64,000 nucleotides of DNA, from contig CAIIXF020000002.1 of the NCBI GenBank assembly GCA_903813345.2, positions 31,738,926-31,802,925 of the forward strand, read 5' to 3'. Below the pieces are notes generated by a model, which was not told the origin of the DNA, ran no database searches, and was given only the letters and a program-made list of their open reading frames with translations. The DNA is from Owenia fusiformis (Eukaryota; Annelida; Polychaeta; Sabellida; Oweniidae). Below are positions 17,301 to 60,086 of the stretch, piece by piece. The position numbers were made by a program, and so were the translations under genes. How positions within the stretch are numbered: the first letter of the stretch is position 1; each line of letters starts with the position of its first letter.

Positions 17301-20300
17301 TGCAACCTTGTGCACTTTTTCATAGGATAAATAAGTTGTGATGATCAGTTTTGAATAATGATCACTGGGAAGATTTCAGGGAAAGAGCGTATATCATATA
17401 GTTTATTGATAATATGTTGACATTGCTGATCGTTATTGAAATCGCTGATGGCGAATAAATACCAAAAGGTAACGCTTTGCGCGAATGTCACTCGTGGTGA
17501 ATTTCTGATGGAACTTCTTATACGACATAATAACCATTTAACAGGATATTGTATGACCACTATCAGATAATTAAACCAAGCTGTTTGTAACTTCATAATT
17601 TACATTTTTGTTTACAATCGCACGAGACATGTGAGCCCGGGTATGTGAGGCTGACCTGAAAAGTCTTAATAAACAATAGTTCTGTCAAAAAATGATTAAA
17701 TCAAATTACATGAGATTCGGAATGAAAGTGCCCCGTCCATATCTTATATTTGATTAAAAATAATTAGTGCATTGGGCAAATAGAATCATTTTTATTGCAG
17801 TCAATTCAAAATATTCCTATGCTGGCTGTACTAATTCTTCAAAACTTTCTACCATTGACGTCATTGATTTGACTCATTTGCATACAACCAATCAGCGCGC
17901 CGGAAATTATCGATTTTCTTTACTTTGTGGAAAGGTGAATAGGATGACCATATCTGAAGATCCTCAATGAACAGACAGCCTGATTATGAAGTTAATTTAT
18001 TTTTGATGAATTTAGTAGAGGTTCTGAATACTGAATTTTGGCATTTGGTTGTTTGTGTATCTTGACAATAACTCAAATAATAACCCATTAACAGATTTTG
18101 GTCAACTTTTACAGACTTATAGGCATATGGCCTCTGCTTAAGAAGGAATTTTCAGTATAACTGCTTGATTAAAAAGACCACCATTTTACATAAAAAACAC
18201 TTTTTAATATTCTTAAATAGCAGTTACAGCTATTTGGTTTGGTTCTAATGTTATACGCTGATAACTCAAAATAAAATAGAAGCCTTATTTCTATTTCTCA
18301 TGAATTTTTTTTTTTTTTTAATGACGCAACCAATCATCAGATTTAATCCAATTACGCTAATGCTAAGGAATTTAATGTCAAATCATATCCTGGGTGTAGA
18401 TTTTGCCAACAGGAGAAAAAACTTCTATTATATTTAATTATTTCTTTGTTATTTCATGTAATTTCCAAAATATCTAGGAACTTGATAAAATATGTTTTGT
18501 TCGATGGGATATGCTATACTGTGGAGTTGGTGATTTTGAGATCTCGATTTCTAGTTTATAATAATAATGTTTTTAGTTTAGTAATAATAGGACTATCATT
18601 TTCATCCTATAATCCATTAATTACTTACTTGTATACTTTAGAGGACAAATATACAAATATGAACACAAAACAATTAAAACATCTATTACCTTTACCTTTT
18701 ATTAACATTCTGTTATGCAGCACCATAATTTCTGATTATATACCATTGGAAAGAGGAGTTTCAAATTGATAAAAATCTTGTTACAAAGCATGTCTAACCA
18801 GCCATAAACAAATTGTCCAAAAAAGCTTAAATTATTAATACTTAACTTATTTAAAAGTTCTGGTTAACAACAATGGGCTATGTAGCATTGGCATCAGAAA
18901 GGGGAGGGCGTTGGGGGCGACAGTCCCCCCCCCCCCTTTCTAAGATTTTTTTAGATTTGAAACCGAGCCTATAGAATTGAAAGCTCTTGAGAGCTAATTA
19001 AAGTCAAAGTGTAATGATATCAGAAATGATTCTATGTCATTATCTAGTCTACATCAAGCACAGAAGATCTCATTTCTCATATTATATTCAATTCTATACC
19101 ATAGTTTCTCAGGAACCCATACAGTATGTAAATACTTTGAAGAATAAGTGTAAAATGTATATTTTAGTAAAATTCAAAGTTTTTTAGTCAAAGTGAATGT
19201 GAATATATGATTTTAATATCATAGAATATTAACGACTCATGGGATTATGATGATTTATATCAACAATAGAAGACCCCTTTTAGATGTTACTTTTATAAAT
19301 ATTTGCATTGAATTTTGATCAATAAAGTAGAATAGAGGTAAAAGTGTATACCATTATACCTGGATCACATTTAATTGCACTCATTACTACAAATTAACAC
19401 TATCAGAATTATGAAGAAATATAATTTATGAATTTTATGATATTGAAACTACAGTGAACTACTTTGCAATGGTGTATTTAGAAATGCTGACTAGGTTTAA
19501 AATAGAAATAATGCAATTACTTAAAAGTATAGGATAATCTAAATAACATACACTTCAAAATTACATAGGAGTAGAAGATTTATAGATTTCTGGAAGTTCA
19601 AATTATTGTATTTATTACCGCATTAGTATTCAAGAATTCAGAGGATTAGCTTAGCAGTTTATACAGCACTGGATCAACATGGGAATAGGCCGCTATGGCA
19701 AGTTGTGTCGAATCGGAGCAGTCACCGTGATGGTGTACTTTTTATTCCAATATTTAATCATTATTAAGACACAAACAAATAAGGTAAACAATATGTTAGA
19801 TGATGGTTTAGGACATACGGAAGGAATTATTATAAAGAGGAAGTGTGATGACATTGCTACATCGAGAACTGAAATGTTACGAAGAAGGGATGTTCTTAGG
19901 AAGCATTGCCCCGTGGTAAAACCAAAACCTGACCCTCATTTGGGACTCTTAGTCAGTGACAAGCATAAAGTATTATTCTGTGATGTTGCCAAAATTGGAA
20001 GCACATTTCTGAAAAAAATGTGGTATATATTGGAGAACAATTTGCCAGAAAAAGATCCTATGAATATGAAGAAAAACATTTTTTCAGTACATTTTCCACG
20101 TTTGGCAGATTTCAACATAACAGAGAGGACAAAACGAATTAATTCATACACGAAAATGATCTTCACCCGAAATCCATACAGTCGATTATTTTCCGCCTAC
20201 CAGAATAAATTTGTGACAGTCAATCCGAGTTATTGGTCTATTGCTAAGGGATTTATCAAAAGACATCGCAAAAATCCCAAAGACCTTTCCATTCTTTGCG

Positions 20301-23300
20301 GACATGATTTGACATTTGAGGAATATCTCTCAATTGTCAGTGAAAATCCCCGAAATACTCGTTATATGGATTATCACTGGAGACCGCTGTCCGCATATTG
20401 TGACCCGTGCTCAATTGATTATGACATCATCGGCAAAATGGAATCATTTAATGAAGATCTTCAACATTTTTTGTGTAAAATTAATGCTGAAGATAAAATT
20501 AATCTGCCGCATGTCAATCCACTGGCTCTTCGAAAATTCAATGTTAAACTGGAAATTTCGGATTCAGTCGGAAACATAAAAAAAATTGATGAAAAGTGTA
20601 TCCCAAAATCAGAGCTGGTCAATAGGGTGGTTCAGAATATGGTAAACCATGGCTACATCGAACCCATTGATAAGATTCACATGGCAGATATCCCGATTAA
20701 TTACACACAGAAAGACTTAGTGGAGTTTATAGGCAGACACATGAACAAGTCTACAACTGAAAAATTACTCAGTTTACCCAAGTTAATCCAGGATAATTCG
20801 TTCCATGATGTTTCACCTGATGTTTTGAACAAAATAAAGAAACTTTATGGAGAGGATTTTATAATGTTTGATTATAACATGTCTGAGTACTAACTCTATT
20901 GATTCCAAATAGAATGTTAAAGGATCTTTACCCATTAGTGAATTTAAAAGCCATATATAATGATAAAATGACATTTTTTTAAGGAAACTCAATGTTAATT
21001 GGTCATCCATAATTTCCTCACTTAACCTGAAATTCTGTATAGTAAAGGTATGTAATCCAACCAGCCAAAAGTGTTCAGATTAGCAGGTGTTCACATTTCA
21101 AGGTTTGTAAACAAACATCTACCGTGTAATTCAAAATTCAAAATACACATCACGACAATCCAATACTAATTTTACCAAAAAAAATTAAAAACAAAATGTC
21201 TAACTAGAACAGGTGATGTGTATATTTATAGTGTTGTAATTCAAATGAGTAAAAATTGTCACAAAGATATTTATAAACGATTTCAAACTAGTGAAATACA
21301 TTTAAAAAACAACTGAAAAAGTATAACAAAAGTGTTACTCTAAATTCATGATATAACAAGCACACAAAGTTATAAGACAAAGATACCAAAGTTATTAAAG
21401 GCATTAAACAAAAACAGTTTCAAGAGCTTTAAATATATCAGACATAACTGTAAGCATATTATTTAGATAAGAGTTAGTTAGTGTTTTGTATATATGTGTA
21501 CAATGCTTTATCAGTGAATAATAAATCAACATTATCAAAAATTATCATGAAAATGTGATAACATGAAAATATTGGCGGTTTGGATTGTGAATTATTATTA
21601 TATAATATTATATTATAAGTATTATTATAAGTAGGGCTAAAGGTTTACTATAATCCATATCTTTCTCATTAGTGTACAATTGATTTTTGTACTTATTTAC
21701 AAAGATCAGTTACCTGGCAGAAGTCTTGTGAGCTTCTTGTTCCCACACATGCTCTATAGTTCCAACATATATCAACAAAGTTGATTTGAATATACATGCA
21801 ATTACGTATATTAAAGGCCCACTTCATAGTATGTCCAATGTATTGGTAAGAATCCTATCTTTCATTTGACACCAACAGCAGCTCAAACAGACCACATCAA
21901 AGCTTACAATAAATTATTAAAAAATATTTCCGATCCGTCAAACTTTATACCTATAGAGCAATATTGTAGTTAACAGTACAAAAATTGGTCTAGTGATAAT
22001 AAAATAAATACTGGATGACCATGAGGTGGATATGCCAGATTATCCTACACTTAGTGTACTAAATGTATAATAACATGAAAAAATAAATTTGATATTTATT
22101 GGCAAAATGAATATCCAGAGGATATCGTTACGATATACTCCGGGCGGAGGATATCGTGACGATATACTCCGGAAACCCCAATATGCGGAGGATATTGTGA
22201 TGATATACTCCGCTTGTTGATTTCCCGCCAAATTGACTCTATTTGGCATGAAATTCATTTTACAATGATATTATACATTCAGTACACTCCTTGTAAGTGT
22301 AGGATAATAAGAACATCCTATGATTTTTTTCAGAATATCATTTTAATCTACTCGGTGATATTGATATATGCACTCGTTCGCTTCGCTCTCTTGTGCAGAT
22401 ATCAATATCACCTCGTAGATAAAAATGATATTCCTCAAAATCATAGGATATCCTATAAATACATATCCGAGGAAAAAAATACTAGGCGAGGCGAAGCTGA
22501 AAATTAATAATTTCTATTTATTGTACAGTATTGTTTAGTTAATAATGTATCTAAATGACTTTCTGAAGAATTATTTTATTGTTACTCTGACCCAATTATA
22601 AGTTCCATATGCCACTGCTGTAAATGTAATTTGGCTTTGTGTAAAAACTTAATACCCACATATATAGTAGATATAGTATCTAGATATTACGTCCACAACA
22701 CAGTCTTCCCAGGGATCAATTTGTACAATTAAAACAACAACTAAATTCCAGGCTCATGCTCAATTATTTTAGGCCATACTAACTAGAATATTAAATAGAA
22801 CCATATACTCGTTTGCTACATTTAACAATGATTGTCTCATTAATTGCGCCTATTTTTGAAAGAAAAGGAACAAAAAATTATTTGAGACATGTCACTCACA
22901 CAGTCAATCAAATATGATAAAATCTTTAATTTGGGATAATACTGAAGTGAAAAAAAAATTACTCGCACAGAAAACGGCATTTGAAGTTCAGAGATTGAAA
23001 AAAGTGAATTACCACTTTTCAGAAAGTGTATGTTTTAAATAACTCTTGGATTAAAAGATGGCGTGTGCTTGAAAATCCTATCAAAAATGAATGGATAATC
23101 AATGCAAACAACAATGCCATCTTTCTATGGCATTGCTAAGAAATTGACACATATAAATTGATAGATCAAAAATATTTTTTCATGATCTAGTGTCAACTCT
23201 GATGTGGTCTGTTTGAGCTGTTTTTGGTGTCAAATGAAAGATTGGGTACTTATTAATCCAAAAATACAATTGATCATTCTTGATAATGCATTAACATATT

Positions 23301-26300
23301 CCTCATATATGTTTTCGTTACCTGAAATATTTGGGAACGATTTAGAAAGTTTTAAGCAAAATTTCTTGCTAATATTATTGATGATTAAACCCTGCAAAGA
23401 TTTATCAATGATGTAGTATGTGATTAAGTTGGAATGCGAGGAGGTCTATCATATTTTTATAATTATTATTTTTTATGATTATTAAAATGATTAGTGTAAT
23501 AATTAGTGTCACTAATTACATTTTATTTGTGTAATAATTAGTGTCACACAATGGTATACAATTTGTACAAATAAATCAATCAGATTCATGGTAAAATACA
23601 ACCAGCTGACAGGTGTCTGCGTGCTAAAACACTGGACTTGTACATACAATTGATATGGGCGAACAACTACAATTCAGCTTATCATACATATTGCAGAGAA
23701 TACCTCCACACGTAAATAATACAAATGATTGTTATGTTGCATGTCACTATAAATAATGACTAGATTATAGAATACAAAAGGAATAAAGGTGCATCCAGTT
23801 ATCACGTATTAATCATTTTGCAGTGAACCATTCAAAGTCAAATTGTCTTTTCATAAATACATGTACTAGCAGGCCCATAGTCAGGATTTGCCAAGGGGGG
23901 TTCAGTTTTCAAACATTTCTAGGGGGGGGGGTTCACTGCATGATTTTGAAAGAATTTTTGGCCAGGGGGGGTTCGCCCGAACCTTACGAACCCCCCCCCC
24001 CCCCTGGCTACGGGCCTGACAAGTACATGTTTTGTATAAAAGAGAAACCCATTGTAGCTTGATTGCTTTCGAGTGCATGAGGCTTATAAACTCATAGTCA
24101 CTTATTTTCACATATTGAAGACTGATTATGAATGAACTAGCATTGTGTTTTAGGCAAAATTATAAAAAGGATATAATGCTGTTAACATACTTTTTACAGT
24201 TTCATGAAAAAGTGGTCTGAATATTATTTAATTCAGTAAGATTTTGATGAGGTATTTACTAAAAGTGTCATGGGTCAGATATTTTTCGGGTCGGATTGAG
24301 CCCAAAAAAGTATGCAGGTTGAGTAATTTCGGGTTGGGTCAGAAGAAAACAGAGAAATGAATTCAGAACTAGCAACTGAAACTACTGGGTAGATTAACAG
24401 CACATTATAAGCCTGTTTCAGCCTGCAATTTTGCATATTATGCTTTGATAAAGGAAAACTGATAAAACTTAGCAATAAATCGTTTGGGAAGAATCCTAAA
24501 TTGTTTTCGTTCATAATTATATGTATACAAAATGATACCTCTAGTATTTACCTCGCCTGCCCATGGCCATGGCTATATAATGCAACCTAACCTCTCTGAT
24601 TCAGTTCATTATACAATCTTACCAATGCAATACTTCCATGTATTTATCCCTATGTGTAGCCACTGTCCCATTTATCTGTTGTAGGTCTGATAGTGAGTGG
24701 TGCCAATACACAAGTGCCAAGTGCACCCCCTACACCCAGTAACAACAGTGGGCCAAGCACCCCTACTGCACCAGCACAGTCAGGTAGGTAATACTTGCTA
24801 ATACACAAGTGCCAAGTGCACCCCCTACACCCAGTAACAACAACAGTGGGCCAAACACCCCTACTGCACCAGCACAGTCAGGTAGGTAATATTTGCCAAT
24901 ACACAAGTGCCAAGTGCACCCCCTACACCCAGTAACAACAACAGTGGGCCAAACACCCCTACTGCACCAGCACAGTCAGGTAGGTAATATTTGCCAATAC
25001 ACAAGTGCCAAGTGCACCCCCTACACCCAGTAACAACAGTGGGCCAAACACCCCTACTGCACCAACACAGTCAGGTAGGTAATATTTGCCAATACACAAG
25101 TGCCAAGTGCACCCCCTACACCCAGTAACAACAGTGGGCCAAACACCCCTACTGCACCAACACAGTCAGGTATGTAATACTTGCTAATACACAAGTGCCA
25201 AGTGCACCCCCTACACCCAGTAACAACAGTGGGCCAAACACCCCTACTGCACCAACACAGTCAGGTAGGTAATATTTGCCAATACACAAGTGCCAAGTGC
25301 ACCCCCTACACCCAGTAACAACAGTGGGCCAAACACCCCTACTGCACCAACACAGTCAGGTAGGTAATATTTGCCAATACACAAGTGCCAAGTGCACCCC
25401 CTACACCCAGTAACAACAGTGGGCCAAACACCCCTACTGCACCAACACAGTCAGGTATGTAATACTTGCTAATACACAAGTGCCAAGTGCACCCCCTACA
25501 CCCAGTAACAACAGTGGGCCAAACACCCCTACTGCACCAACACAGTCAGGTAGGTAATACTTGCTAATACACAAGTGCCAAGTGCACCCCCTACACCCAG
25601 TAACAACAGTGGGCCAAGCACCCCTACTGCATTAGCTCAGTCAGGTAGGTAATACTTGCCAATACACAAGTGCCAAGTGCACCCCCTACACCCAGTAACA
25701 ACAACAGTGGGCCAAACACCCCTACTGCACCAACACAGTCAGGTAGGTAATACTTGCTAATAGACAAGTGCCAAGTGCACCCCCTACACCCAGTAACAAC
25801 AGTGGGTATATTCCGTATATGTACGGTCGTAATTCATGTAATCAAACTTGAAGATAGACCCAGAAACCCCTCCTTAAAGGAGCCCTGTGTTCTGTGTTCT
25901 CAGCTACTGCTAAGCTACACGGGTGGACTATAAACCTTGGGTAAATCTTACTACAATCCTTTATATTACTGTATAGTACATGTATGATACAGTATGAATA
26001 TAGAGTGATGATTATTTTTTTTATATATGCTCGGTATTTGGTGGTTGTTTTCCATAAATGGCAGGTGATGACATTCCACATGTTAATGTCTTGTCTCTGT
26101 ATTCTAGAGAAGATGCCCAGTCAGCCAACAGTGCATCATACAGGCATTGCTACATCACAACCACAATCTGGTAGTATTACAAGTCTTCCACAAATGGCAG
26201 GTAGTGACATTCCACATGTTAATGTCTTGTCTTTGTATTCTAGAGAAGATGCCCAGTCAGCCAACAGTGCATCATACAGGCATTGCTACATCACAACCAC

Positions 26301-29300
26301 CATGTGGTAGCATTACAAGTCTTCCACAAATGGCAGGTTGTGACATTCCACATGTTAATGTCTTGTCTTTGTATTCTAGAGAAGATGCCCAGTCAGCCAA
26401 CAGTGCATCATACAGGCATTGCTACATCACAACCACATTACAAGTCTTCCACAAATGGCAGGTGGTGACATTCCACATGTTAATGTCTTGTCTTTGTATT
26501 CTAGAGAAGATGCCCAGTCAGCCAACAGTGCATCATACAGGCATTGCTACATCACAACCACAGTCTGGTAGCATTACAAGTCTTCCACAAATGGCAGGTG
26601 GTGACATTCCACATGTTAATGTCTTGTCTTTGTATTCTAGAGAAGATGCCCAGTCAGCCAACAGTGCATCATACAGGCATTGCTACATCACAACCACCAT
26701 CTGGTAGCATTACAAGTCTTCCACAAATGGCAGGTGATGACATTCCACATGTTAATGTCTTGTCTTTGTATTACAGAGAAGATGCCCAGTCAGCCAACAG
26801 TGCATCATACAGGCATTGCTACATCACAACCACCATCTGGTAGCATTACAAGTCTTCCACAAATGGCAGGTTGTGACATTCCACATGTTAATGTCTTGTC
26901 TTTGTATTCTAGAGAAGATGCCCAGTCAGCCAACAGTGCATCATACAGGCATTGCTACATCACAACCACAATCTGGTAGTATTACAAGTCTTCCACAAAT
27001 GGCAGGTTGTGACATTCCACATGTTAATGTCTTGTCTTTGTATTCTAGAGAAGATGCCCAGTCAGCCAACAGTGCATCATACAGGCATTGCTACATCACA
27101 ACCACACTCTGGTAGCATTACAAGTCTTCCACAAATGGCAGGTGGTGACATTCCACATGTTAATGTCTTGTCTTTGTATTCTAGAGAAGATGCCCAGTCA
27201 GCCAACAGTGCATCATACAGGCATTGCTACATCACAACCACCATCTGGTAGCATTACAAGTCTTCCACAAATGGCAGGTGGTGACATTCCACATGTTAAT
27301 GTCTTGTCTTTGTATTCTAGAGAAGATGCCCAGTCAGCCAACAGTGCATCATACAGGCATTGCTACATCACAACCACCATCTGGTAGTATTACAAGTCTT
27401 CCACAAATGGCAGGTTGTGACATTCCACATGTTAATGTCTTGTCTTTGTATTACAGAGAAGATGCCCAGTCAGCCAACAGTGCATCATACAGGCATTGCT
27501 ACATCACAACCACAATCTGGTAGTATTACAAGTCTTCCACAAATGGCAGGTTGTGACATTCCACATGTTAATGTCTTGTCTTTGTATTACAGAGAAGATG
27601 CCCAGTCAGCCAACAGTGCATCATACAGGCATTGCTACATCACAACCACAATCTGGTAGCATTACAAGTCTTCCACACAATATAGGCCTCCAGAATCTTG
27701 GAGTGGGGGGTCTGCAGAATATGAACATAACAGGTCTACAGGGCTTACAGAACATATCAGGTAGATATGTTTATTATAGGTTTTATTTTATTATTCAAAG
27801 CGTTGATCATGATTACAAATAATTCCCAACCCTCTGGTGTTTGAAAAATGAAAATACTTGGGTGTTAATCCATAGATAATCCTTGAAAATGAGAAATATT
27901 TTTGGGGATTATTATGGTGCAATCTTATAGTTAATAAATTGCTTTAAAGTGTAAGAAAAAGGTTTTATGTTAACATAAAGTTGTCACTGATGTTGTTGAT
28001 GTGTAATTCTCCTATAAAGAAAGAGGAGGGAAAACCCCAGAGCTTTAGAGATAACAGACATAATAACATCTCTTACTTACCACCTTCGTTTGTTTGAATT
28101 TTCACTGGCTAGTTTCCAAATACTACATTTCGATGTTTTATTTGATGTCGGCATATTCCGTACACCTTTCTTTACCTTGATCTGAAATAAGAAGCCATGA
28201 TATTGGTTAACACGCCAGAAAGGAACATAATATTATTTGAACTGTATTTCGAAAATTTTGAAACTGCCATTGATGACATCATTTGTTTTGTCGATTTTTG
28301 ACCAATCAGAGATGTATGTCATCTCAATACAGGTTCACATTATAAGCGTATGTCATCTTTGAACTCTGGGATTATTTCCCTTCTGTATAAAGACAAGGAA
28401 GATTGGCTCCCAGGGTTCTTGATATTCTGCCATATTTGGAGTCACATCTTGATTACAAGGTTGAATATTGAGTTGGAGTTCTGGGAGCCAATCCTCCTTG
28501 TTATTCCTCAGAAGAGAAGAACTATACAGGAAGAGTGCTGCCATCTTTTTATGAACATTCTTTCACCTACAGTACATGTTCTTTATTGTTCTTGAATATT
28601 ACAAGTCTGCACTTTGCAGGTGCATAGCATGTTTATATCCCAAGAATCCAAGCCCATGTTCATAATAGCAAGTACATCAAACACCCCTACCACATTAGCA
28701 CCGTACTTGGGGATTTAGTAACAAGATATGAAAAGTTACGGCTTATGAATAGGATCATAGTATATTCCACGCCATCTATTTCTAACTGAAGTGAATTTTT
28801 TGTCCTTTATTCCACTTAAAGTTAAAGTTTAATTCAGATATTCTCAATGTTCTATATTTTAGATTTAATACAACTTCACCTCCCCTCCTATTGTAAAACC
28901 ATAAACGTAAAATTTCAAGGGTCATTCACCTCCGATCCTCCTATGGTAAAACTATAAACATTCTTGTTTGGTATGAAGTATGCCTAAAGATGTTCTAGAA
29001 CTCAGATAGTGCAAGTGCATTAAGATTAGCAACACTTGAATTTCAATTTATTTATCCAGATCATCAAATCTAATCTGCCTACTTTAATTATATTTTCAGT
29101 GTCTGTGACACCAGGTGGTACACTGCAGGTTCCAGTGCCCATAACAATGATCAACACCTCTAGTAATCTTATTAGTAGCCCTAGTGGCATAATCCACCTA
29201 GGTTCAGTGCCCACTGTACAGTCTATAAGCACATCGACCAGTAACACTTCAACCCTTGGAGCTAGGCTACAGGTACACTGTTTATTTTACTTATAGTTTT

Positions 29301-31866
29301 AATTTGGGATACCTCCATGGCCCTTAACCCATTCTAAAGAGTTTTGAAACTTCAACCATGTAGATAAGAAATAATTACAGTGAAACCTGTGAAGTGGAAC
29401 ACCTTTAGAAGTGGAACACCATTGTAATTGGAACACTTTTCAGAGTCCCAAAACCAACTGAATATACATTAAATCAACCTCTGTAAGTGGAACATCTCAC
29501 AAGTGGATCACTTTTTAGAGATGTTCCACTTAGACAGGTTTTACTGTACCTAAAGTTTGAAGCCTTATAATGGGTTTTACACAAACAATCGGCAGCACAT
29601 CTGACTGATAGATTAATATACGTTCATCTTCCTATTCGTGTATCGGGATGTGTTTATCTGAATAAATAAATTCACACAATTTTTTATAGACAAGCCAATC
29701 AGGGATGGTTACCATGGTGACAGGGTCTAATCAACAAGTCAGTGGACAAACATCACAACTTATCACCACCCAAGGTAGGATAACATCAAGTAGTCATTTA
29801 TATTATTTTTATATTATTAAGGGCCTCTAAATAAATTGCATGATCATTGACTACTGAAAGACAAAAATAGAGCACGTAAGGCTTGCATGGCAATACGTGG
29901 TTTTGAACTTTAGGTTGTACCATGTGATGCGGGTGTCTCTCTCTTACCACTAGTCTTAGGTCTTAGTCTCAACAACTTACAATCGCTGTATGCATGCTTC
30001 ATTTAAATCATGCTCTGGTGCTTTACCAAAGATATTTCCAGCCATGGGACATATATATTCTTGTGACTCTTCTATCCAATGCAGATACCTTGAACAGAGG
30101 AAATTTACATATTACTAACTTGTACTATGAAAATTGATACTCTGTAATGTGTTTTACTGCAGTTGTGTTTTTTCATTATTTTATGTGATAAATTCATTCA
30201 AAATGAATCTTATCCAGGCAAGCAGGGTACAGCTCCCACTACTATGCTCTCTGTACCCATCAACATGGCAGGGAGTATAGGCCAGCTAATGCAGGCAGGT
30301 CTAAAGAACAATGTAGGTCAGACCATACGTCAAGGGACCCAGTTACCTGTTCTTCAGGTGAGTGAATTTGTATATTGAACTAAAAGGTATTTTGATGATA
30401 GAAAATTGCTCATTGTCAATATTTTTATTGCAATATTCCGACTTGTATTTTGTTTTGCTCTTTTGATTATTTTACTTGAATTATTGAAAGTTCAATACAA
30501 GATCAATTATCAAGATCAGGTAATAAAGCCTGCCCCCTATCCGTTATGGTGCCATTGTTACAATTTTAGAAAGGAAATGGGATGAACTTAGCTAATTTTC
30601 AAAAACTGGGAGATCCAACGTTTATTCAATTTATTCGTACCATCATTCACAGTAGTTAACAGGTGGTACCAAAATTAAAAAACTAAAAAAGAAAAAATAA
30701 TTTTTATTATTCTAATTTGTTGATAGATTCAAGGCCAACAGGGTATCCAGCTACTGAGTGCTACTATTCCCCAGCAGAGACAGGGGACCCCTATCAAGAT
30801 AACTAACCAATCAGGCCAGATCACAATCACTTCAGGTAGATTATATATTACTCTTAAGATTGTAGAGATTTGTTAAAGCCTCAGTCACATTTGCTCTTGG
30901 CCTACTGCAGTCCAACAGCGGGTGTAGCTTCATAAAATCGATATAGAAAATCTACATCGTACTGCTTATCCCTATATTTTATGCTGTATATTTCTCTCGC
31001 TTTTGGGAAGCCACGGCCACCATATTACGGTTGCTGTAGATCAAATGTGACTGAACTTTTAGTCCTGAGATTCTTTTGGTAAAAGATTGGGTAGACGTGT
31101 AGATATTGTTATATCAGCGATAAGGGATGTGAACATTTTATATGAAATATATGTCCAAGATTTTATCCTCAGTCTAAAAATCGATAAACACCAATACAAT
31201 AGCTTGATAGATAGTTTCCCAATTAATGTTATTAAAACGACCTAAAGTTAATATTTAAAAACAGCTGTACATATATCATAAAAAAGATACATTTAAATTA
31301 GCTGTCGCAATTTAGCTTGCATATGATATGAACGATTTATGGTTATCATAACTTGTAAAACAAGTTGAAGTATTATAGAGCCTGCCCCATTTGCAGTATG
31401 TCGTCTTGTTGTGTATGTGATCCAGGTTTGACTCCCAGTATGGTTAAGGTGTTTGCTATGTATTATAAAACAAGGCATTAACATGCAAAATGTTACCACC
31501 TGCCATTTGTTACAGATACAGACTGCCAAACGCTGAACACTAACCACTGAACACCATCCTCAAATAAGTTGAAGACTATAACAATAAAATATATGACTGA
31601 GTCGTCCAAAATTCATATAAAAGGCTTATTTACTTTCAGGACAATTACTAAGTCCACAAGGGGTTCTCTCACAATCAGTTGCATCCATGACGCAGTTTCC
31701 AAATACAGTAGTAGCGGGTCAGAAGCAACAGGTCCCCCAACAACAACAGCAGATCCAATTACAACAAATTCAGCAGCAACAGTTACAACTAGCTTTCCAA
31801 CAACAACAATTACAACAAAAGGCTAAGACTAAGCGACGGACTACACCAACGCCACCTATGCCATAA
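284..31866 (+). CDS. SUPT20H: SUPT20H (SPT20 homologue), C-terminal part, multi-exon, 5' end outside window
   Basis: SPT20 is a scaffold subunit of the nuclear SAGA histone-acetyltransferase co-activator. In-phase exons: 284-410, 1016-1432, 1997-2167, 24685-24783, optional tandem exons 26108-27549, 27593-27760, 29100-29272, 29690-29774, 30218-30357, 30727-30835, 31640-31866 (TAA). Without the tandem exons they give 571 residues. Recognition rests on the family's low-complexity C-terminal half: a basic-proline start (VKRTAPIKLSL, like the vertebrate KHRPPPIKL segment), Q-rich tracts, an LMQAGLKNN segment, and the very end KAKTKRRTTPTPPMP, which parallels the vertebrate KSKMKRGTPTTPKF tail. The conserved N-terminal SPT20 domain must lie upstream of the window. 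The phase-1 intron at 2168-24684 is 22.5 kb and filled with transposons. AATAAA near 33073 is a plausible polyadenylation signal. Identification is from remembered family similarity and was not searched. Confidence 0.85.
411..1015. other. SUPT20H intron, no recognisable feature
   Basis: AT-rich intron between two in-phase SUPT20H exons. I see no repeat, RNA gene or coding signal in it. Confidence 0.6.
1016..1432 (+). CDS. SUPT20H: SUPT20H polyglutamine exon
   Basis: A 417-nt exon, acceptor ttttcag and donor gtaagt, in phase with its neighbours. It encodes about 110 residues dominated by Gln and Leu (CAA/CAG runs with interspersed TTA), ending in a Pro/Thr segment. Vertebrate SPT20 carries comparable Q-rich tracts. 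The CAA/CAG purity between 1230 and 1360 makes it likely to vary in length between individuals. Long open frames in the other two + frames and on the - strand are by-products of the repeat. Confidence 0.85.
1584..1656 (+). repeat. tRNA-derived SINE head or tRNA pseudogene
   Basis: It carries a textbook internal A box (TAGCTCAGTCGGTAGAGC) and B box (GGTTCGATTCC) at tRNA spacing. The expected acceptor and anticodon stems do not pair: the 5' GCATTTA does not match the 3' CGGGGCA, and the anticodon arm is replaced by TTGGGCCCAA. It is therefore not a functional tRNA. The D-arm resembles tRNA-Lys. The unique sequence that follows to about 1810 may be the SINE body. It lies in the SUPT20H intron 1433-1996. 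Confidence 0.65.
2337..7266 (-). mobile_element. Near full-length L1/Tx1-like LINE with poly-A tail and target-site duplication
   Basis: The element runs on the - strand. Its 3' end is a 38-39 base poly-A tail (T run at 2336-2374); its 5' end is at about 7266. A 13-base direct repeat (TGTTTTGAGGTAT) is at 2324-2336 and 7267-7279, the target duplication of target-primed reverse transcription. The single long frame is uninterrupted. About 940 bases lie upstream of it, without a convincing ORF1, so the 5' part may be UTR or a degraded ORF1. A perfect duplication plus an intact frame imply a recent insertion. Confidence 0.9.
2614..6327 (-). CDS. LINE ORF2: AP endonuclease and reverse transcriptase, intact (1237 aa)
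   Basis: Non-LTR retrotransposon polyprotein. The N-terminal apurinic endonuclease domain (about residues 1-240) opens with KAVTLNVRGLNKSRKR, then LQETFS, the GDFNCAL motif near residue 145 and SPDHNAAFI near 229. The reverse transcriptase occupies roughly residues 460-760; it has the finger motif NWRPLTLLNVDYK, RGVRQGDPLSGVIF, and the catalytic YADDTTIF near residue 700. A C-terminal CCHC-type zf-RVT motif (CPWCDD...EHLLVKC) is near residue 1125. The start is the first Met before the endonuclease core. The endonuclease opening and total size fit the L1/Tx1 group. No frameshift or stop is seen, so it may still be mobile. Confidence 0.92.
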   Translation of the reverse strand: MGVRFKAVTLNVRGLNKSRKRINTFRWLNNQNIGVAFLQETFSHTKIENQWRNEWKGISVFSHGTCHSKGVAILISEKVDANIIDKTVDKNGRYIILNVEIDGDTYCFVNIYAPNDKNQQITFFQTLNQLLVNSVDTNYCFCAGDFNCALTEKDKNGGKSVQDKSKVINEILTLKTTNNLQDIWRYQHPLEHRYTWQNNNCKIQCRLDYWLISTDLNQQVSSEIGFGPSPDHNAAFITFQTKNFKKRGPGFWKYNSLWDNDVEYKKLIREEIKNSKEKHKDTQDLGLKWDLIKMDIRSVCKRYCKTKAKEHKLEEETALKDLNEAQVALDRNNNIETVNKYNTCKLKVELIQDRKTQSSIMRSKARWCEYGERSSKYFLNLEKHNYSNKVINSIYDKRGVLVNDPKQVLQTEESFYKDLYSKKNNDPDGKYSNIFFQNEIPTIDNIDKENCDKRITCEECYKSLKTFKKNKTPGTDGLTAEFYCIFWDEIKLEMTDSFNYSLIKGELSISQNRGIISLIPKKGKNRQHLTNWRPLTLLNVDYKICTKTISERFRDILPKLIHSDQVGYVKNRYIGQSIRLIYDMLDYTKTNNIKGLLLLIDYKKAFDSIDWKFMIKTLEKFNFGETLINYVNAIYAKPQSCVINNGYTSEWFQLERGVRQGDPLSGVIFILVAELLSIAIRSDRNVKGIPIKDKYEVKLCQYADDTTIFLNDQESANNALELVEKFGKCSGLEINKDKTEIMWIGRDKGNKQDINGIKSKTSVKALGITFTYDIDDRTKLNIEKKIDEMKNKIKLWNMRNLTLIGRIQIIKSLGISQLTYVSSVMHIPPQILQEINKIIFEFVWKKKPPKVKRKSLIAEIEQGGLKMKDYDIMDQSLKCTWIKRLLEKGQSAWKEIPSLFIEPHGGIGLLSQCNYDIKYFENYKAIPKFYLAMLRTWAEVTHHDVNNWNDVKDEVIWNNKNILVNNKMVYYKTWHQAGIATIYDILDRDNNYLSLTELERKFNIPIDFLKYASILSAIPKKWKTLKNSTLKNNPSKKNVPNPSQLSCKAIYNKILEKEIEKPTSLTKWIQNNNVNENDMKYYYTLAKKVTYETKMWSFQYKILTNTLACNRKLKMMNISQTDKCPWCDDTHTMEHLLVKCRITKDIWKQFIEWWKLKLNKELNLTENDILLGIIGNREKGAELNLCILIMKYVIYKSFLENELPYFFKFTNYLRIYLNSVKLLDQKGVDIHALYRLL
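7739..8724. other. SUPT20H intron, no recognisable feature
   Basis: AT-rich intronic sequence between two composite transposons. A 73-codon open stretch at 7981-8202 has no family signature. Nothing else is supported. Confidence 0.5.
9356..11366 (-). mobile_element. 5'-truncated non-LTR retrotransposon (CR1/jockey-type RT)
   Basis: Flanked by an exact 12-base duplication (GAGGTTTAGAGT) at 9344-9355 and 11367-11378. Read on the - strand it begins inside the reverse transcriptase, so it is 5' truncated by about half. It ends in an A-rich tail (T-rich 9356-9366 on the + strand). The inferred order of events is a mariner insertion followed by this LINE. Confidence 0.88.
9615..11252 (-). CDS. Reverse transcriptase C-terminal part of truncated LINE (545 aa from first Met)
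   Basis: The frame is open from the truncation point near 11363, so the first Met is not the native start. Upstream of it are RT fingers (NYRPITLLSTFSKIFEKVV), followed by FQSGFLPGHNTELQ, SAAFDTVPHSLL, SGVPQGSVIGPLMFLIYIND and the catalytic YADDTSLYSF. The C-terminal part has CPCGSPESTKHFLLSCP, a zf-RVT-like end. These motifs place it near CR1/jockey-type LINEs and far from the L1/Tx1 element at 2614-6327. No stops are seen, but endonuclease and ORF1 are absent, so it is dead by truncation. Confidence 0.85.
   Translation of the reverse strand: MHARIMKHLSENDLLYKFQSGFLPGHNTELQLLAITDYIYKQMELGNCINSVYLDISAAFDTVPHSLLIHKMKSYGINGKTADLCNSYLRNRKVCVSIEDHKSKFSNDDFINSGVPQGSVIGPLMFLIYINDLPDNLDSETYIYADDTSLYSFFHPSNDQVGQIQNDLNTISSWSKKWFLKFKPSKSAQVIFHSNRIKNLQKTPLYFDGVVIPCKTSHKHLGFILDENLTFEDHINYLSQKVQKLLNPLKYLSNSVKSNHLETMYNSYVASNFDYCSAIYGSASLALLAKLDKLHYQAGVICAGVLHGSNTSKVFQCLNWKTLSERRKEKNLRIMFKINRKMVAKYISDIFDIYKNPATRTTRHSLPFKIPTQVTTRFLNAPVLNLIKQWNNLSQPVRDLPTISSFKNAVRSLILPNMNFIPTTKLKLSRNKEKIINRLRVDFMLKDHFFSHNFTGVNDNKCPCGSPESTKHFLLSCPRHINERIDMLAALRQNNLLYDTNTCTNQNDQLEYLIFENTLCRDSQNTLIDIVTDFVGTCYIHPTRI
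11840..12320. other. SUPT20H intron, no recognisable feature
   Basis: No gene, RNA or clear repeat structure is seen; short open stretches on the - strand have no signature. Confidence 0.45.
12708..13938. mobile_element. DNA element with CGCGCAGTTTG subterminal repeats
   Basis: The ends match as CACAGTGCCCATGTCAAGC (12708) and the inverse of CACGATGCCCATGTCAAGC (ends 13938). The 11-mer CGCGCAGTTTG or close variants recurs in both orientations near 12737, 12760, 13125, 13150, 13465, 13495, 13875 and 13900. Clusters of short subterminal repeats like this are transposase binding sites in CACTA-like and related elements. No transposase frame and no clear target duplication are seen. Confidence 0.55.
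14110..14948 (+). mobile_element. 3' fragment of an L1/Tx1-like LINE
   Basis: The + strand open stretch ends at 14629. It encodes a zf-RVT tail (CELCKVDKQDTIEHGLYEC) preceded by a KLRYFQYRILLRTIFFNKML segment, the layout of the end of ORF2 in L1/Tx1 LINEs. About 320 bases of 3' sequence follow, to an A-rich tail at 14929-14948. It is heavily 5' truncated, and a different subfamily from the intact LINE at 2337-7266. Confidence 0.75.
15000..19600. other. SUPT20H intron / upstream of sulfotransferase, nothing recognised
   Basis: AT-rich sequence with only short open stretches. A fragment near 18498-18550 (gttcgatgggatatgctata) resembles the right end of the element at 46336-47069, so it is probably a degraded copy. 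A C homopolymer lies at about 18928-18941. Confidence 0.4.
19679..20893 (+). CDS. Carbohydrate sulfotransferase (Sulfotransfer_2 / CHST8-14 type), single exon, 404 aa
   Basis: Type II Golgi enzyme predicted to move sulfate from PAPS to a glycan (chondroitin/dermatan or HNK-1-like acceptors in this family). A short cytosolic tail is followed by a membrane segment at about residues 12-29, then the lumenal domain. The 5'-phosphosulfate-binding motif is CDVAKIGST (101-109); the 3'-phosphate-binding motif is TRNPYSRLFSAY (about 162-173). The later block HWRPLSAYCDPCSIDYDIIGK, with paired Cys, is typical of the family. Length is normal. The gene is intronless and lies on the same strand inside the 22.5-kb SUPT20H intron. 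The start is the first Met ahead of the membrane segment. Acceptor specificity cannot be told. Likely poly-A signals are near 21519. This looks intact and functional. Confidence 0.9.
   Translation: MGIGRYGKLCRIGAVTVMVYFLFQYLIIIKTQTNKVNNMLDDGLGHTEGIIIKRKCDDIATSRTEMLRRRDVLRKHCPVVKPKPDPHLGLLVSDKHKVLFCDVAKIGSTFLKKMWYILENNLPEKDPMNMKKNIFSVHFPRLADFNITERTKRINSYTKMIFTRNPYSRLFSAYQNKFVTVNPSYWSIAKGFIKRHRKNPKDLSILCGHDLTFEEYLSIVSENPRNTRYMDYHWRPLSAYCDPCSIDYDIIGKMESFNEDLQHFLCKINAEDKINLPHVNPLALRKFNVKLEISDSVGNIKKIDEKCIPKSELVNRVVQNMVNHGYIEPIDKIHMADIPINYTQKDLVEFIGRHMNKSTTEKLLSLPKLIQDNSFHDVSPDVLNKIKKLYGEDFIMFDYNMSEY
20894..21835. other. 3' flank of the sulfotransferase, AT-rich
   Basis: Probable 3'UTR and intron. 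AATAAA near 21519 is a candidate poly-A signal; nothing else is recognised. Confidence 0.4.
22113..22213. repeat. Three copies of a near-palindrome (GGAGGATATCGTGACGATATACTCCG)
   Basis: A roughly 26-base near-perfect palindrome occurs at about 22114-22139, 22144-22171 and 22185-22212, with small substitutions. Each can fold on itself. Function unknown; a dimeric protein site within a transposon or a hairpin series are possibilities. Confidence 0.8.
22316..22450. repeat. Long hairpin with about 55-base arms
   Basis: TCCTATGATTTT...AATATCATTTT...ATCTAC...GGTGATATTGATAT is followed, after a loop containing tcgttcgcttcgctctc, by its inverse ending at 22447. It looks like a small MITE. A related fragment is near 48470-48545 (gctgcgctcactcg..gatatttttttcaaaccatagg). 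Confidence 0.65.
23861..24031. mobile_element. G-rich MITE
   Basis: Inverted ends acatgtactagCAGGCCCATAG and, inverted, CTACGGGCCTGacaagtacatgt, with runs of G on the left (aggggggggg) and C on the right. Compact, non-coding. Confidence 0.6.
24685..25806 (+). repeat. 95/98-bp tandem array carrying an exon plus its splice donor
   Basis: The first unit contains the real 99-nt SUPT20H exon (acceptor gttgtag, donor CAG|gtaggt, phase 1 on both sides). About 11 further units repeat nearly the whole exon sequence and its donor. Donor GT positions: 24784, 24882, 24980, 25075, 25170, 25265, 25360, 25455, 25550, 25645, 25743. Two of these are gtatgt, the rest gtaggt. Units 2 onward lack the original acceptor; reading through a donor gives an in-frame stop (GGT AGG TAA). 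Units differ by a 3-base AAC indel and a few substitutions. So the splice donor has been amplified while only the first need be used. Confidence 0.92.
26048..27592 (+). repeat. SUPT20H: 136-bp tandem array of complete exon plus 43-nt intron
   Basis: Eleven consecutive units precede the terminal exon 27593-27760. Each has acceptor TATTCTAG or TATTACAG, a 93-nt exon and CAG|gt, then 43 nt to the next acceptor. Exons: 26108-26200, 26244-26336, 26380-26461 (82 nt, shortened), 26505-26597, 26641-26733, 26777-26869, 26913-27005, 27049-27141, 27185-27277, 27321-27413, 27457-27549. Each full exon is 31 codons, phase 1 to phase 1, so any number can be included without shifting the frame. The 43-nt introns hold tgttaat as branch-point candidate and a pyrimidine-rich tract. 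Donors vary (gtagtg, gttgtg, gtggtg, gtgatg) and are weaker than consensus. A partial unit (26048-26107) carries what was the original intron end. Confidence 0.9.
27593..27760 (+). CDS. SUPT20H: SUPT20H exon following the tandem exon array
   Basis: A 168-nt exon, phase 1 on both sides. Its first about 83 nt match the repeated 93-nt exons; it then continues into unique sequence (HNIGLQNLGVGGLQNM...) up to donor CAG|gtagat. It is therefore the parental exon from which the array was copied. Confidence 0.88.
27761..29099. other. SUPT20H intron with a short inverted repeat
   Basis: Mostly featureless. A 19-base inverted repeat (aaggaagattggctcccag at about 28395-28414 and its inverse at about 28481-28500, one mismatch) may be the core of a small MITE around 28340-28540. 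Confidence 0.45.
29378..29546. mobile_element. 169-bp MITE with pogo/Tigger-like ends
   Basis: CAGTGAAACCTGTGAAGTGG at the left and its inverse form ending GGTTTTACTG at the right, with TA on both sides. The interior repeats the motif AAGTGGAACA several times. A partial relative lies at about 34020-34100. Lies in a SUPT20H intron. Confidence 0.7.
30881..31054. mobile_element. MITE, copy 1 (TCAGTCACATTTG ends)
   Basis: Inverted ends TCAGTCACATTTG and CAAATGTGACTGA bound 174 bp in a SUPT20H intron. The interior pairs as well (gtagcttc..aaaatcg / ..gaagccacggcc). A second copy is at 34113-34284. Confidence 0.65.
31395..31545 (+). repeat. SINE-like dispersed repeat related to the tandem mini-introns
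   Basis: It includes a B-box-like AGGTTTGACTCCCA near 31426 and a body whose - strand reads acaaatggcaggtggtaaca...catgttaatgc. The same body, inverted relative to this copy, is at 32832-32875 and 35385-35435. It closely matches the donor and intron of the 136-bp array units. No convincing A box, so the SINE label is tentative. Confidence 0.5.
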
Positions 31867-33090
31867 AGTGAATTACTTATATTGTGGTTGTTGGATTGTT
31901 TAAATTATGGGTTGAGAATGTCAGTATAAATGAGTAAAATGCACCATGGGATTCAGTGGCTTCATTGAGGTATTACCCTATCATGGTCCTCAATTACCCA
32001 AGTGCGAGTAGGTAGTTACCAGTTTCACCACCAGGTGGCTGATTCGGGTCAATTAACATGGCAGGTATATAAGAAAATTCCCTTAAACTTGAATATTATC
32101 AATTTAAGTGGCTCAATTTTCATATAACCCATATGTGTCTGATACTTATACTTATGAAAATATGTCCAGTAAAGCAAAATATTATCAGTCCACTAAAAGA
32201 AAGGATATTTCATATTTGTGATTTTATAGCATGGGTCTATGGGGAATCTCCCCGAGCTAGAAGTCACATTTTCAAAGAAAATTAATTTTTCAAAGTTGAT
32301 AAACACTTTTTAAAACCACATTTCTAGATGTAATTTTACATGTAGATTTCAAATATGATATTACTTTGACCGAATTTTGAATTTTTAATGACCTAAATCA
32401 AGATTGTTTCTACTCGCATCTGGGTTATTAAGGACAAATTGTTGCATCTATAAATACATTTACCACCAATAAAGCAGAATTTACTATGTAAGTACGATGA
32501 CTGCAAACTGCAACATACTTTTAAAGCCATTGTCTTGCAACTAGACCTGGTCCACATACAGTAATACTTTGTTTTTCCACCCGAGGTATGTTTATGTTAG
32601 GGGGATTCCCAAGGTCTAAATTATGTTTTAGAGCAAGGTGAATGAAGTTTTATTTTTTAATGTAAATTATAAATGATTTTATATTTAAAGTCTATATGTT
32701 TGTTAATGAGTTTGCAGGATATCTGTAAAACAATTACATAATGTGTATTTTATGTCACAATTGTAAAAGGTGGCGTATTGTTATAGTCTCCAACTTTTTT
32801 GTGACAAATGGTGGTTGGGGTTCGCTATCTGTAACAAATGGCAAGTGGTGACATTTTGCATGTCAATGCTTTGTATACATCTGTACTGTAGTAGCAGAGT
32901 AGTACACAAGTCTTTTTATCAATAGTTTTCTGTAAGTTGAAATGAATGATGATAAGAATTCAGCATTCTGGAAATGGGATCAAGGCTAATTCTGTCAATG
33001 CTCTGAGAAAATGGAAAACTTGGAGGAGCGTTATATGTGTATGCTACATATACTGTACTTTTGATACTTACAAATAAATAAATGGTACTG
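31867..33090 (+). other. SUPT20H 3'UTR and flank
   Basis: Non-coding sequence after the TAA. A dispersed repeat copy (gtaacaaatggcaagtggtga) is at 32832. AATAAATAAATGG near 33073 is the likely polyadenylation region. Confidence 0.55.
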
Positions 33091-35490: not shown

Positions 35491-38400
35491 TCAAGAATCC
35501 TCTGTCCGAGTTTTTAAACTGCGAGCGCCACCAAACTTTCGCTTTTTGAAAGAAACTGCACCTGAGCTAGAGTCATTACTGAGAGAAGAAACAGTTTTTT
35601 CTTTGAACTTCATTTTTTTGGGTTCCGAGTGCATAACTATCGGAGCTGCTATTTCTTCACTCTCCTTTGTGACTGGTAACTGCAAATCAACATACTCCCT
35701 GGAAGTAAAAAAACATATAACTTAAAACATGTAAATCTACTCTGGTGACAACTCTACGATACAGAACAAGGCACAGGACGTGAACGAGATCACACCATCA
35801 AATAGGCAGACACTATGAACCAGGAAAACTGTTCTCCTATTATGTTAACAAATTCCAAGGACAAGAAAACAAGATGGCCGTCCAAAAGTTAATCAGCTCT
35901 AGTAAGGAAATCCGATGAGCGCTTTTCCTGAAATGGCGATGACAAGATTTTTCGAAAAACCTTCAAAATGGCCACCAGAAAACAAGATGGCCGCCCAAAA
36001 TATAATCAGCTCTAGTACTTGATATCCTCTATCATGTGTGTAAATTTGAAGGAAATCCGATGAGCGGATTTTCTGAAATGGCGATGACAAGATTTTTCGA
36101 AAAAATCTTCAAAATGGCTGCCAGAAAACAAGATGGCTGCCCAAAAGTTAATCAGCTCTAGTACTTGATATCCTCTATCATTTGTGTAAATTTGAAGGAA
36201 ATTCGATGAGCGGTTTTCCTGAAATGGCGATGACAAGATTTTTCGAAAAACCTTCAGAATGGCCACCAGAAAACAAGATGGCCGCCCAAAAGTTAATCAG
36301 CTCTACTACTTGATATCCTCTATCATTTGTGTAAATTTGAAGGAAATCCGATGTGCGGATTTTCTGAAATGGCGATGACAAGATTTTTCGAAAATCTTCA
36401 AAATGGCTGCCAGAAAACAAGATGGCCGCCCAAAAGTTAATCAGCTCTAGTACTTGATATCCTCTATCATTTGTGTAAATTTAAAGGAAATCCGATGAGC
36501 AGTTTTCCTAAAATGGCGATGACAAGATTTTTCGAAAAACCTTCAAAATGGCCGCCAGAAAACAAGATGGCCACCCAAAAGTTAATCAGCTCTAGTGCTT
36601 CATATGCTCTATCATCTCTGCGAATTTGGAGAAAATCTGATGAGCAGTTTTCCTCAAACGGCGATGACAAAAAGCGGGACGATCACGGTCACGATCACGA
36701 CCACGATCACGATCACGACCACGATCACGACCACGATCACGACCACGATCACGACCAGTATGACGACTATATCCCACCGATGGTGTGATTAAATTAAAAA
36801 TGGCCTTTAATTTAGGAAATTACCCAATGAACAAAAAACCTAATCAGATCTTGGAACTTAGCTCAAGCGCCTGTACAAATTCAAGATCAGATGAATGGTT
36901 TCTAGCTATCTTGATAATTACAACCCTAATTTTGTACTTATTCTTGAAAACATTTATCATATGAAAATGTCAGATCAAGTTTTACAACGTACGGTTCAGT
37001 ATAAGTGACAGTCTCCCATTGCCCATAAGCCTGCGGTCTGGCTGGTCTTTTAGTAGCATGCTTCACTGGGGGCTTCTTCTCTTGGGGTAGTGGAATCTCA
37101 TGGGTAGGCACCTCCTCTGCTTTTTGAGTATTCTGACTGGATTCCTGTAAAAATATGTTGGATTGATCAGTCTAGAAGAATGCTAAAAATACTGAAGTAT
37201 ATGTATGAAAACTGATGCACACAAATACAGTAGGTTATGACTGTAGTAAAAAGCTTCAGGCAAAGTTTGAAAGTATTTCTATCATTGATTCACGATCCAA
37301 CATTCTCTCATACAGAAAGTTGGTTCATGAATTATGAAAATGCAACTTTTATAGATACGAGAGAAAAAATGTATTATCTTCACATTGAAATTGAAACAGT
37401 TATCATCATATGTCTCACATCATTATTTTGAGTTATATAAGATATAAGTCAAAAGATACAGCATTGGTTTAATCAGAGCTAATAAATACATATACAACAT
37501 CATTCATCATTATTCGGGTGGATTGTAGTACTACCAACCCCCTGCTCCTCTCACAGGCCTGTACATTATATAACACACAGGCACTAATTTTTGTAATCTT
37601 GGTTCTAAAACGTGACGAACCTTGGTCTTTTCTTCAGGTGAAGGCTTCAGTCTGTCTGAGGGTGACACATAACCCTCAGGCTTTTCCCATGTAGTCTCTG
37701 GAAAAACAAATTGGACATGTTTCAGTAAAATAGTGAGCCAATATACTAGTGACAATTATAAAATTACTGGACTTCTATCTGAAAAAGTAACTGTTTCAAC
37801 TCAAAATCATTTACTTGTTCACAAATATTTGCATACAGTAAATATTTCTTTCTACCTCCACTTTCTGTATGCCAGTAGTATGTGTGGCCCTCTGGTGACG
37901 TAGTTTCCTCCCACATTGTGGGGTCAACCTCAGGTTTAAAGCCAGGGGGTGGCAGGCTCGGACCTTGTAGAGGCTCATATGATGGCTTAAACTCTTCTTC
38001 TGAAATATGGAGAATTTAAATATACTTTACATTACACTATTGCCGTTGCCTTCCATAAATTCCAAAGAATGACAAAAATATTATGATGTCCACAAACTGG
38101 TCTAAGTTTTACAATATAAAATTTTTAGTTGTGGCCTGCAGTCAGCATTTGTTCCTTAGATCTAATATTCCTGATGACATTCCACATTGACTCTTTTGAT
38201 GTTCCTGGGAATTATTTTTAGTTTGCCTCTGTATTGTGAACTCTCTGGCAATGAGAACTGATTGTTTCAATCTATAGAACAATTTGGCCTTTCTATTTTC
38301 AAGCCATCTTACTCACAACCTTTTGCTATACTACCTTTTTTCTTTGGCTTTTCTTTAACACCGTATTGGGCAGCTAGTTCAGGATTTGATGCGAGATCTT

Positions 38401-40478: not shown

Positions 40479-53097
<12,619 letters not shown>

Positions 53098-55290: not shown

Positions 55291-56424
55291 GTGGTGTTTT
55301 TATTTGTACAGTGTACATTTAAATCAGAAATCTGTCATACTTCTTTTAACAAACTCTATACTACTTGGATTTTATTCTTGATAAAATGACATCATGTACA
55401 AAGGTATGATTTAGAAAACTGTCAAATCACAGATAAGTAAGGCATTTGACAGAAAAATGAAAGAACTCATTAATAATGATAACACTTTTTCATACATCTT
55501 CTCATTGAGTCTCAAAACCGTTTAGAGGACATTGCCTTGGTATTTACTCTAGTAGCTCATGCTGGTTGAGTATGCACTTCTATGTCCAGAGATTTTCTCT
55601 TCAGAAATCATCTATGTGAAGGTCATTGATCAATTTTGGCTTGGTAACATATTTGCCACAGAAGGCGAAATAGGTCAAATGGCCACGCCCTTTTCTACGC
55701 GAATACTCCCCCCCCCCCCCATTTTTGCATCTCCGGAACCGTTGGACATAGAAGGTTGTGTGACCACTCAAAATGTCCGGAATGGCCACATTATAGGGGG
55801 TCAATAATACATATGTGTTTGAAAAAGTCAATGGTTTTCAAGATATTTGCCAAAAACTGATTTTAGCATGTTACGCACAACAGTTTTCATCTATCCTGCA
55901 TCATTTAAGACTGGATCCGCAGCCTCTATCTAGTCAGATCAGCGAAGGAAACAAACTTTTTTGGTTGTTGAGTTGGCCAAGAGGTCTTAGGTGAATGGGT
56001 ACCCTAAACCACGAGGTTGCGAGTTTGAGACACGTGTGCTCCGTATGTTCATTCTTTTATGAGTACCATATCTAGTATCTACAAGGGATGCTGATGTATT
56101 ATGAGTATTGAATATCGATTGAGTTTAATTATAAACCACGAGGTTGTGAGTTTGAGACACATGTGCTCCTTGTACAATAATTGTGTTCATTCTTTAATGA
56201 GTACTAGATATAGTATCTACAGGGTGGTCCAAAAAAAATTGGAACATTTGTTAATTGAACACAAAACCTTTATTTTTCCTCTAAAATGCACCAAAACTTT
56301 ACTGAGCATAGTTCCGTCACTTATCTCTCTGATGTAAAGTTTATAGGTGCAAACCAAAAAGTTAATGTATTAAACTAATCAATGTTTGATATGACCCCCT
56401 TTGTTATGCGGTAAACACGATACA

Positions 56425-59860: not shown

Positions 59861-60086
59861 TTTGTCCAATGTTTGTACTGGATGTGTTTTGCTGTATATA
59901 AATAATGGCACCATAATGATTCACATTTTTCATTTTTGACAGTAATTTTTACGTTTGTGATTTAACATGGGATAGTTCAGGACCAGACACATCAATCTAA
60001 AACAGTTATAAAGTTATTATGTGTACTTTTTTCTTATTTCATGCATGTAATGGATGTATACAATGTATATCTTTATATGAATAAAG

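Follow-up and report, generated by a model that had tools for sequence, protein, structure and literature searches.

Two tandem arrays at the ends of one intron

The DNA analyzed here (the window) is a 64,000-nucleotide (nt) stretch of Owenia fusiformis contig CAIIXF020000002.1, recognizable as animal DNA by its genes and introns and with a G+C content of 34%. An earlier note on this stretch, made from the sequence alone, had described a ladder of repeated exons in a plus-strand gene labeled SUPT20H. The inferred exons of this gene at positions 1016 to 1432, 1997 to 2167, 24685 to 24783, 27593 to 27760, and 29100 to 29272 form a single open frame when joined. A later part of the gene (31640 to 31866) is also open; however, its frame differs from that of the joined exons spanning 1016 to 29272, and therefore an exon is probably missing between 29100 to 29272 and 31640 to 31866. 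Searches of Pfam and PDB with the open reading frames (ORFs) of the gene and with the joined exons returned weak, uninformative matches or none for the SUPT20H label. The Spt20 domain was not seen in the ORFs searched and is probably encoded outside the window.

The intron at 24784 to 27592 carries minisatellites across both of its splice junctions, as these junctions were inferred from the sequence (Table 1). At the donor end, array 1 contains 12 unit starts, the last unit being incomplete, and a donor is present in 11/12 units. These 11 donors, which include the real one, comprise 9 GTAGGT and 2 GTATGT sites, and the acceptor of exon 24685 to 24783 lies outside the repeated unit. At the acceptor end, Tandem Repeats Finder (TRF) reported array 2 at 26050 to 27677 with a period of 136 bp, 12.1 copies, and 96% matches. 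Array 2 holds 12 exon starts, from 26108 to 27593, the last of which belongs to the inferred real exon. The 11 intronic copies have TATTCTAG or TATTACAG ahead of the exon and CAG/GT behind it (the slash marks the exon-intron boundary), and 43 nt separate each from the following copy. Ten of the 11 are 93 nt (31 codons) long, the exception being copy 3 with 82 nt. A 33-nt core of array 2 occurs 12 times versus 0.00 expected, and therefore the repeat is not due to chance. The flanking exons are matched in phase, and joining 24783 to 27593 leaves the frame open through exon 29100 to 29272. The anatomy that the earlier note had given for 26048 to 27760, including the 136-bp units, the single exception to the 31-codon length, and the matching phase of the flanking exons, was largely right; what it had overlooked was the sister array at the 5′ end of the same intron.

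Table 1. Features of the doubly arrayed intron and its surroundings (positions in the window; a slash marks the exon-intron boundary)
Feature	Positions	Strand	Description
Upstream inferred exon	24685-24783	+	99 nt, phase 1-1; acceptor TTGTAG, donor CAG/GTAGGT; open frame with neighboring exons
Array 1	24701-25806	+	TRF, 95-98-bp units, 11.5 copies; each unit repeats the 3′ part of exon 24685-24783 and its donor
Spacer between arrays	25807-26046	+	Outside both TRF arrays
Array 2	26047-27677	+	136-bp units with 12 acceptors; 11 exon-like copies lie in the intron, with 43 nt after each
Intronic part of unit, array left edge	26056-26107	+	CAG/GTGATG, branch-like TGTTAAT, pyrimidine tract; resembles dispersed repeat
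Exon copy 3	26380-26461	+	Shortened to 82 nt by an 11-nt deletion; shifts the frame
Downstream inferred exon	27593-27760	+	168 nt, phase 1-1; repeat covers its first 84 nt

In a random placement of 7 hand-picked array units relative to 25 hand-inferred junctions, 0.15% of trials hit the two ends of the same intron and 4.1% hit at least two junctions of any kind; these figures are rough, as both lists are incomplete. Arrays abound in the window, for which TRF gave 43 rows, some of them overlapping. Further long-unit arrays were found at 35904 to 36670 (period 145), 44568 to 45440 (period 162), and 60082 to 61973 (period 151), none of which overlaps any exon junction inferred here.

Collectively, these data suggest that the intron quite probably carries a pair of mirage minisatellites and is spliced out via its outermost sites, the copies being pseudo-exons. 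Tandem duplication between short stretches of matching sequence is the probable origin of each array, with amplification and homogenization probably following. The spliceosome would mostly join the outermost sites, 24783 to 27593, and exon definition would favor this pair because the exons it delimits measure 99 and 168 nt; an exon that uses an inner donor, or that starts from an inner acceptor and reads through, is longer and contains a premature stop. In array 1, use of any of donors 2 to 11 leads to a stop just past the normal exon end (10/10), and in array 2 acceptors 1 to 11 with read-through all lead to a premature stop (11/11). RNA made from inner sites would thus be degraded, and the 93-nt copies would be included at a low level at most. 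Since array 1 cannot yield in-frame products, arrays of this type arise here whether or not they have a coding use.

Splice sites and reading frame of the copies

The rival reading, advanced in the earlier note, holds that the 93-nt copies are splice-competent exons spliced in at variable number, each adding 31 residues. To compare sites, we scored donors and acceptors with an approximate weight matrix against 12 inferred real donors (4.1 to 12.5) and six inferred real acceptors; a plus-strand gene at 49242 to 52180, in which two MBT repeats were found, contributed inferred splice sites to the comparison. The copy donors were GTGGTG (score of 4.7; four copies, including copy 3), GTAGTG (4.8; one copy), GTGATG (7.2; one copy), and GTTGTG (0.8; five copies), so that 5/11 lie below all 12 inferred real donors. 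G at position +5 is absent from 11/11 copy donors, although 6/12 inferred real donors lack it too.

Several observations weigh against dismissing the copies as pseudo-exons. Ten of the 11 are not only 93 nt long but also open, and 6/11 of their donors fall inside the weight matrix range of the inferred real ones. By U1 pairing energy, all 11 do so (−6.4 to −8.2, compared with a real range of −5.6 to −13.4), and 11/11 upstream acceptors (5.0 to 6.8) lie inside the range of the six inferred real ones (0.5 to 6.8). As U1 pairing excludes no copy donor and the acceptors are good, some inclusion of copies may occur. Moreover, with a random 52-nt intron piece and an intron of at least 40 nt, an in-frame donor scoring at least 4.6 arose in 1.6% of trials and one scoring at least 7.0 in 0.4%. 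Finally, the lancelet precedent discussed below may not carry over to this host.

The in-frame donor of array 2 is therefore an uncommon coincidence and favors the ladder, and yet its weight is lessened because this one unit was picked from array-rich sequence. At a threshold of 0.7, the same simulation gave an in-frame donor in 8.6% of trials, and with introns of at least 20 nt the values were 14.6%, 3.1%, and 0.9% at thresholds of 0.7, 4.6, and 7.0, respectively. An earlier simulation of acceptor-spanning duplications, with in-frame donors in 56%, 18%, and 4% at these thresholds, was set aside, as its outcome varied greatly with the junction chosen (from 0.1% to 56% across nine junctions at 4.6).

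The reading frame also bears on the ladder. The claim that any subset of the copies would keep the frame did not hold: copy 3 shifts it, and the frame stays open as far as the end of exon 29100 to 29272 in only 1024 of the 2048 subsets, a number equal to that of the subsets without copy 3. As for splice competence, the earlier note was supported by the acceptors and by the U1 energies of all 11 donors; by weight matrix it was supported for six donors, the other five scoring below all inferred real ones. With one copy out of frame, five donors weak by weight matrix, and a sister array that cannot be coding, we regard the exon ladder as unlikely. Its likeliest form would use the in-frame copies with better donors (copies 1, 4, 5, 8, and 9), with introns of about 300 to 450 nt between nonneighboring copies rather than 43-nt ones.

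The possibility that array 1 forms an intron/exon ladder of its own, or zero-length exons for recursive splicing, was set aside because its inner acceptors are weak. Seven candidate sites of two types scored −3.0 to −4.2, compared with 0.5 to 6.8 for the six inferred real acceptors; this scoring used the coarse matrix and covered these seven sites among the AGs of the unit.

The 43-nt spacers

The earlier note had made the 43-nt length of the spacers, at or below the usual lower limit for introns, the key question. However, joining donor k to acceptor k+2 gives introns of 168 nt (1/10) or 179 nt (9/10), and a ladder that leaves out adjacent copies is therefore possible at any lower limit. In addition, a 43-nt intron is known to be spliced in human ESRP2 (PMC4463651; this and the other publications are cited for the sections covered). 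Both points are compatible with the ladder, and the 43-nt limit is not decisive.

An alternative is that the spacers themselves are excised and adjacent copies are joined in series. All 11 spacers have GT...AG ends, a branch-like TGTTAAT motif, and a pyrimidine tract, and in length they match the ESRP2 intron. Nevertheless, by hand count the distance between the donor and the presumed branch A is about 21 nt, compared with 27 nt in the 56-nt HNRNPH1 intron (PMC8363638). Furthermore, the ultrashort introns described are conserved and often G-rich, the ESRP2 intron being G-rich with a G-rich enhancer (PMC4463651), whereas the present spacers are T-rich and their branch-like motif is ordinary. 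Serial excision of the spacers thus appears highly improbable.

Origin of the units and variation among copies

Inspection by eye of the array 2 joint showed that the exon's ...TCTTCCAC meets the intron's AAATGG..., with TTCCA on both flanks, and the joint of array 1 was placed at a common TGC in the same way. The intronic part of the 136-bp unit, taken from the last unit, matches 31510 to 31456 on the minus strand up to the acceptor (E value of 1.6 × 10−9) and, over its first 41 nt, 32834 to 32874 on the plus strand (E value of 3 × 10−5). The minus-strand copy has CAGGT, and the plus-strand copy has CAAGT. Both belong to a dispersed repeat (ACAAATGGCARGTGGTRACATTTTGCATGT...), a relative of which apparently makes up the 3′ end of the intron. 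Because the intronic piece with its CAG/GT resembles this repeat, we infer that the apparent donor of the array 2 copies is older than the array and part of the dispersed element.

Besides the deletion, 4/93 sites vary among the exon copies, with five distinct changes, of which 3/5 are nonsynonymous compared with 74% of possible changes, a tiny sample. In the spacers, 5/43 sites are variable, including two in the donor; the difference between exon copies and spacers gave a P value of 0.14 in Fisher's test. The few exon-copy variants look neutral, and in so small a sample nothing points to retention as coding sequence. Codon constraint, which would speak for the ladder, is likewise not apparent at this sample size.

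The copies carry different combinations of variants, which argues against the copy number or arrangement being partly an assembly artifact. Near-identical tandem arrays are hard to assemble, and one lancelet mirage was wrongly assembled in a draft genome (PMC3087553); however, both arrays are present whatever their exact copy number, and we consider an artifact very unlikely. A distinct expectation under the mirage reading is that copy number would differ between individuals, which is plausible by analogy with the lancelet gene BflGb6, where two haplotypes have 6 and 3 units.

A further version of the ladder would have protein length set by array length and by the choice among about five better-donor copies, with introns of about 170 to 450 nt and a donor that lies in a dispersed-repeat fragment; a local mutational process may in addition favor both junctions of one intron. 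This combination, too, seems improbable.

Relation to known repeats at splice junctions

Arrays of this kind are known as mirage minisatellites from lancelets, in Adh3, BflGb6, BflGb9, TnC, and PGBD5; like the arrays here, they consist of tandem units over an exon-intron boundary. BflGb6 carries 150- to 160-bp units across an acceptor, and in BflGb9 the 3′ boundary of exon 2 is duplicated (PMC3087553). The Adh3 mirage has units of 10 to 72 bp, and its description, including somatic instability, is attributed to Canestro 2002 as cited in PMC3087553. PGBD5 has two arrays in one gene, with units of 60 and 108 bp, and Adh and TnC are cited as similar cases (PMC3902484). In the lancelet globin mirages, AG/GT signals occur in many, though not all, repeats (PMC3087553). 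At the present locus, the acceptor is found in 12/12 copies and GT in 11/11 intronic copies in array 2, and the donor in 11/12 units of array 1. As in lancelets, the outermost copy is intact and in frame, the join of 24783 to 27593 being open. Compared with the lancelet mirages in the sections covered, two differences stand out here: both ends of one intron are arrayed, with 11 donors and 12 acceptors, and the exon-like copies are mostly in frame.

Normal splicing of these genes is reported or inferred, which speaks against the ladder. Reverse transcription-PCR on lancelet globin genes suggests regular splicing (PMC3087553); for PGBD5, it is the inference of the authors, who describe a predicted exon of 57 residues inside the repeats that is without expressed sequence tag or mRNA support (PMC3902484). 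That prediction makes the same inference as the earlier note made here. Given the sister array, the published mirages, the dispersed-repeat donor, the neutral-looking variants, copy 3, and the weak donors, the graded set of SPT20 isoforms proposed in that note is not the best reading of the locus.

For lancelet globins, a model of intron gain has been published that starts from junction-spanning arrays (PMC3087553). The copies at this locus could similarly be an intermediate in intron gain or exonization, a mutational stock for a later exon or intron position, and they are in frame and phase matched. Nonetheless, this is a forward-looking possibility, and nothing here indicates that the copies are used; we find it quite unlikely as an account of the locus.

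Two other classes of repeat show partial likeness. Tandem exon duplications and cassette arrays share with array 2 a series of exon-like copies that match in phase and have an acceptor and GT apiece; they differ in that the unit here combines an exon piece with an intron piece instead of a whole exon, that 5/11 donors are weak by weight matrix, and that one copy breaks the frame. In paralogues from human segmental duplications, internal minisatellite expansions change exons or introns and for the most part preserve the frame (PMC2812944). The likeness lies in minisatellite expansion that alters exons or introns, and the section covered describes no intron affected at both ends. Among the publications listed by literature searches, no junction-spanning minisatellite outside lancelets was recognized by title or abstract start.

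If the intron does carry a mirage pair, it would be a clear case in which both ends of one intron were amplified, and a natural test of spliceosome choice between 11 near-equal donors and 12 near-equal acceptors, for which exon definition predicts use of the outermost. Such repeats may also be mistaken for exons by gene prediction. If, instead, the copies were spliced, a minisatellite would set protein length. By comparison with the lancelet cases, the array pair is probably no new system for making proteins but a curiosity.

Other features of the window

A search of the window against Rfam at the gathering threshold gave 0 matches. The large intron at 2168 to 24684 of the same gene contains an uninterrupted, LINE-like ORF of 1237 codons (2614 to 6327, minus strand) with endonuclease, reverse transcriptase, and zf-RVT domains. 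Searches for relatives of the LINE or of the dispersed motif yielded none in a set of viral contigs; in a set of genome contigs, 5 stretches fitted a pattern, of which none was confirmed. A second reverse transcriptase ORF (RVT_1; 9615 to 11399, minus strand) and a lone sulfotransferase ORF (Sulfotransfer_2; 19655 to 20893, plus strand) lie within it as well. Farther downstream, two closely similar ORFs in opposite orientation (55556 to 55807, plus strand, and 58798 to 59100, minus strand) probably represent an inverted repeat pair.

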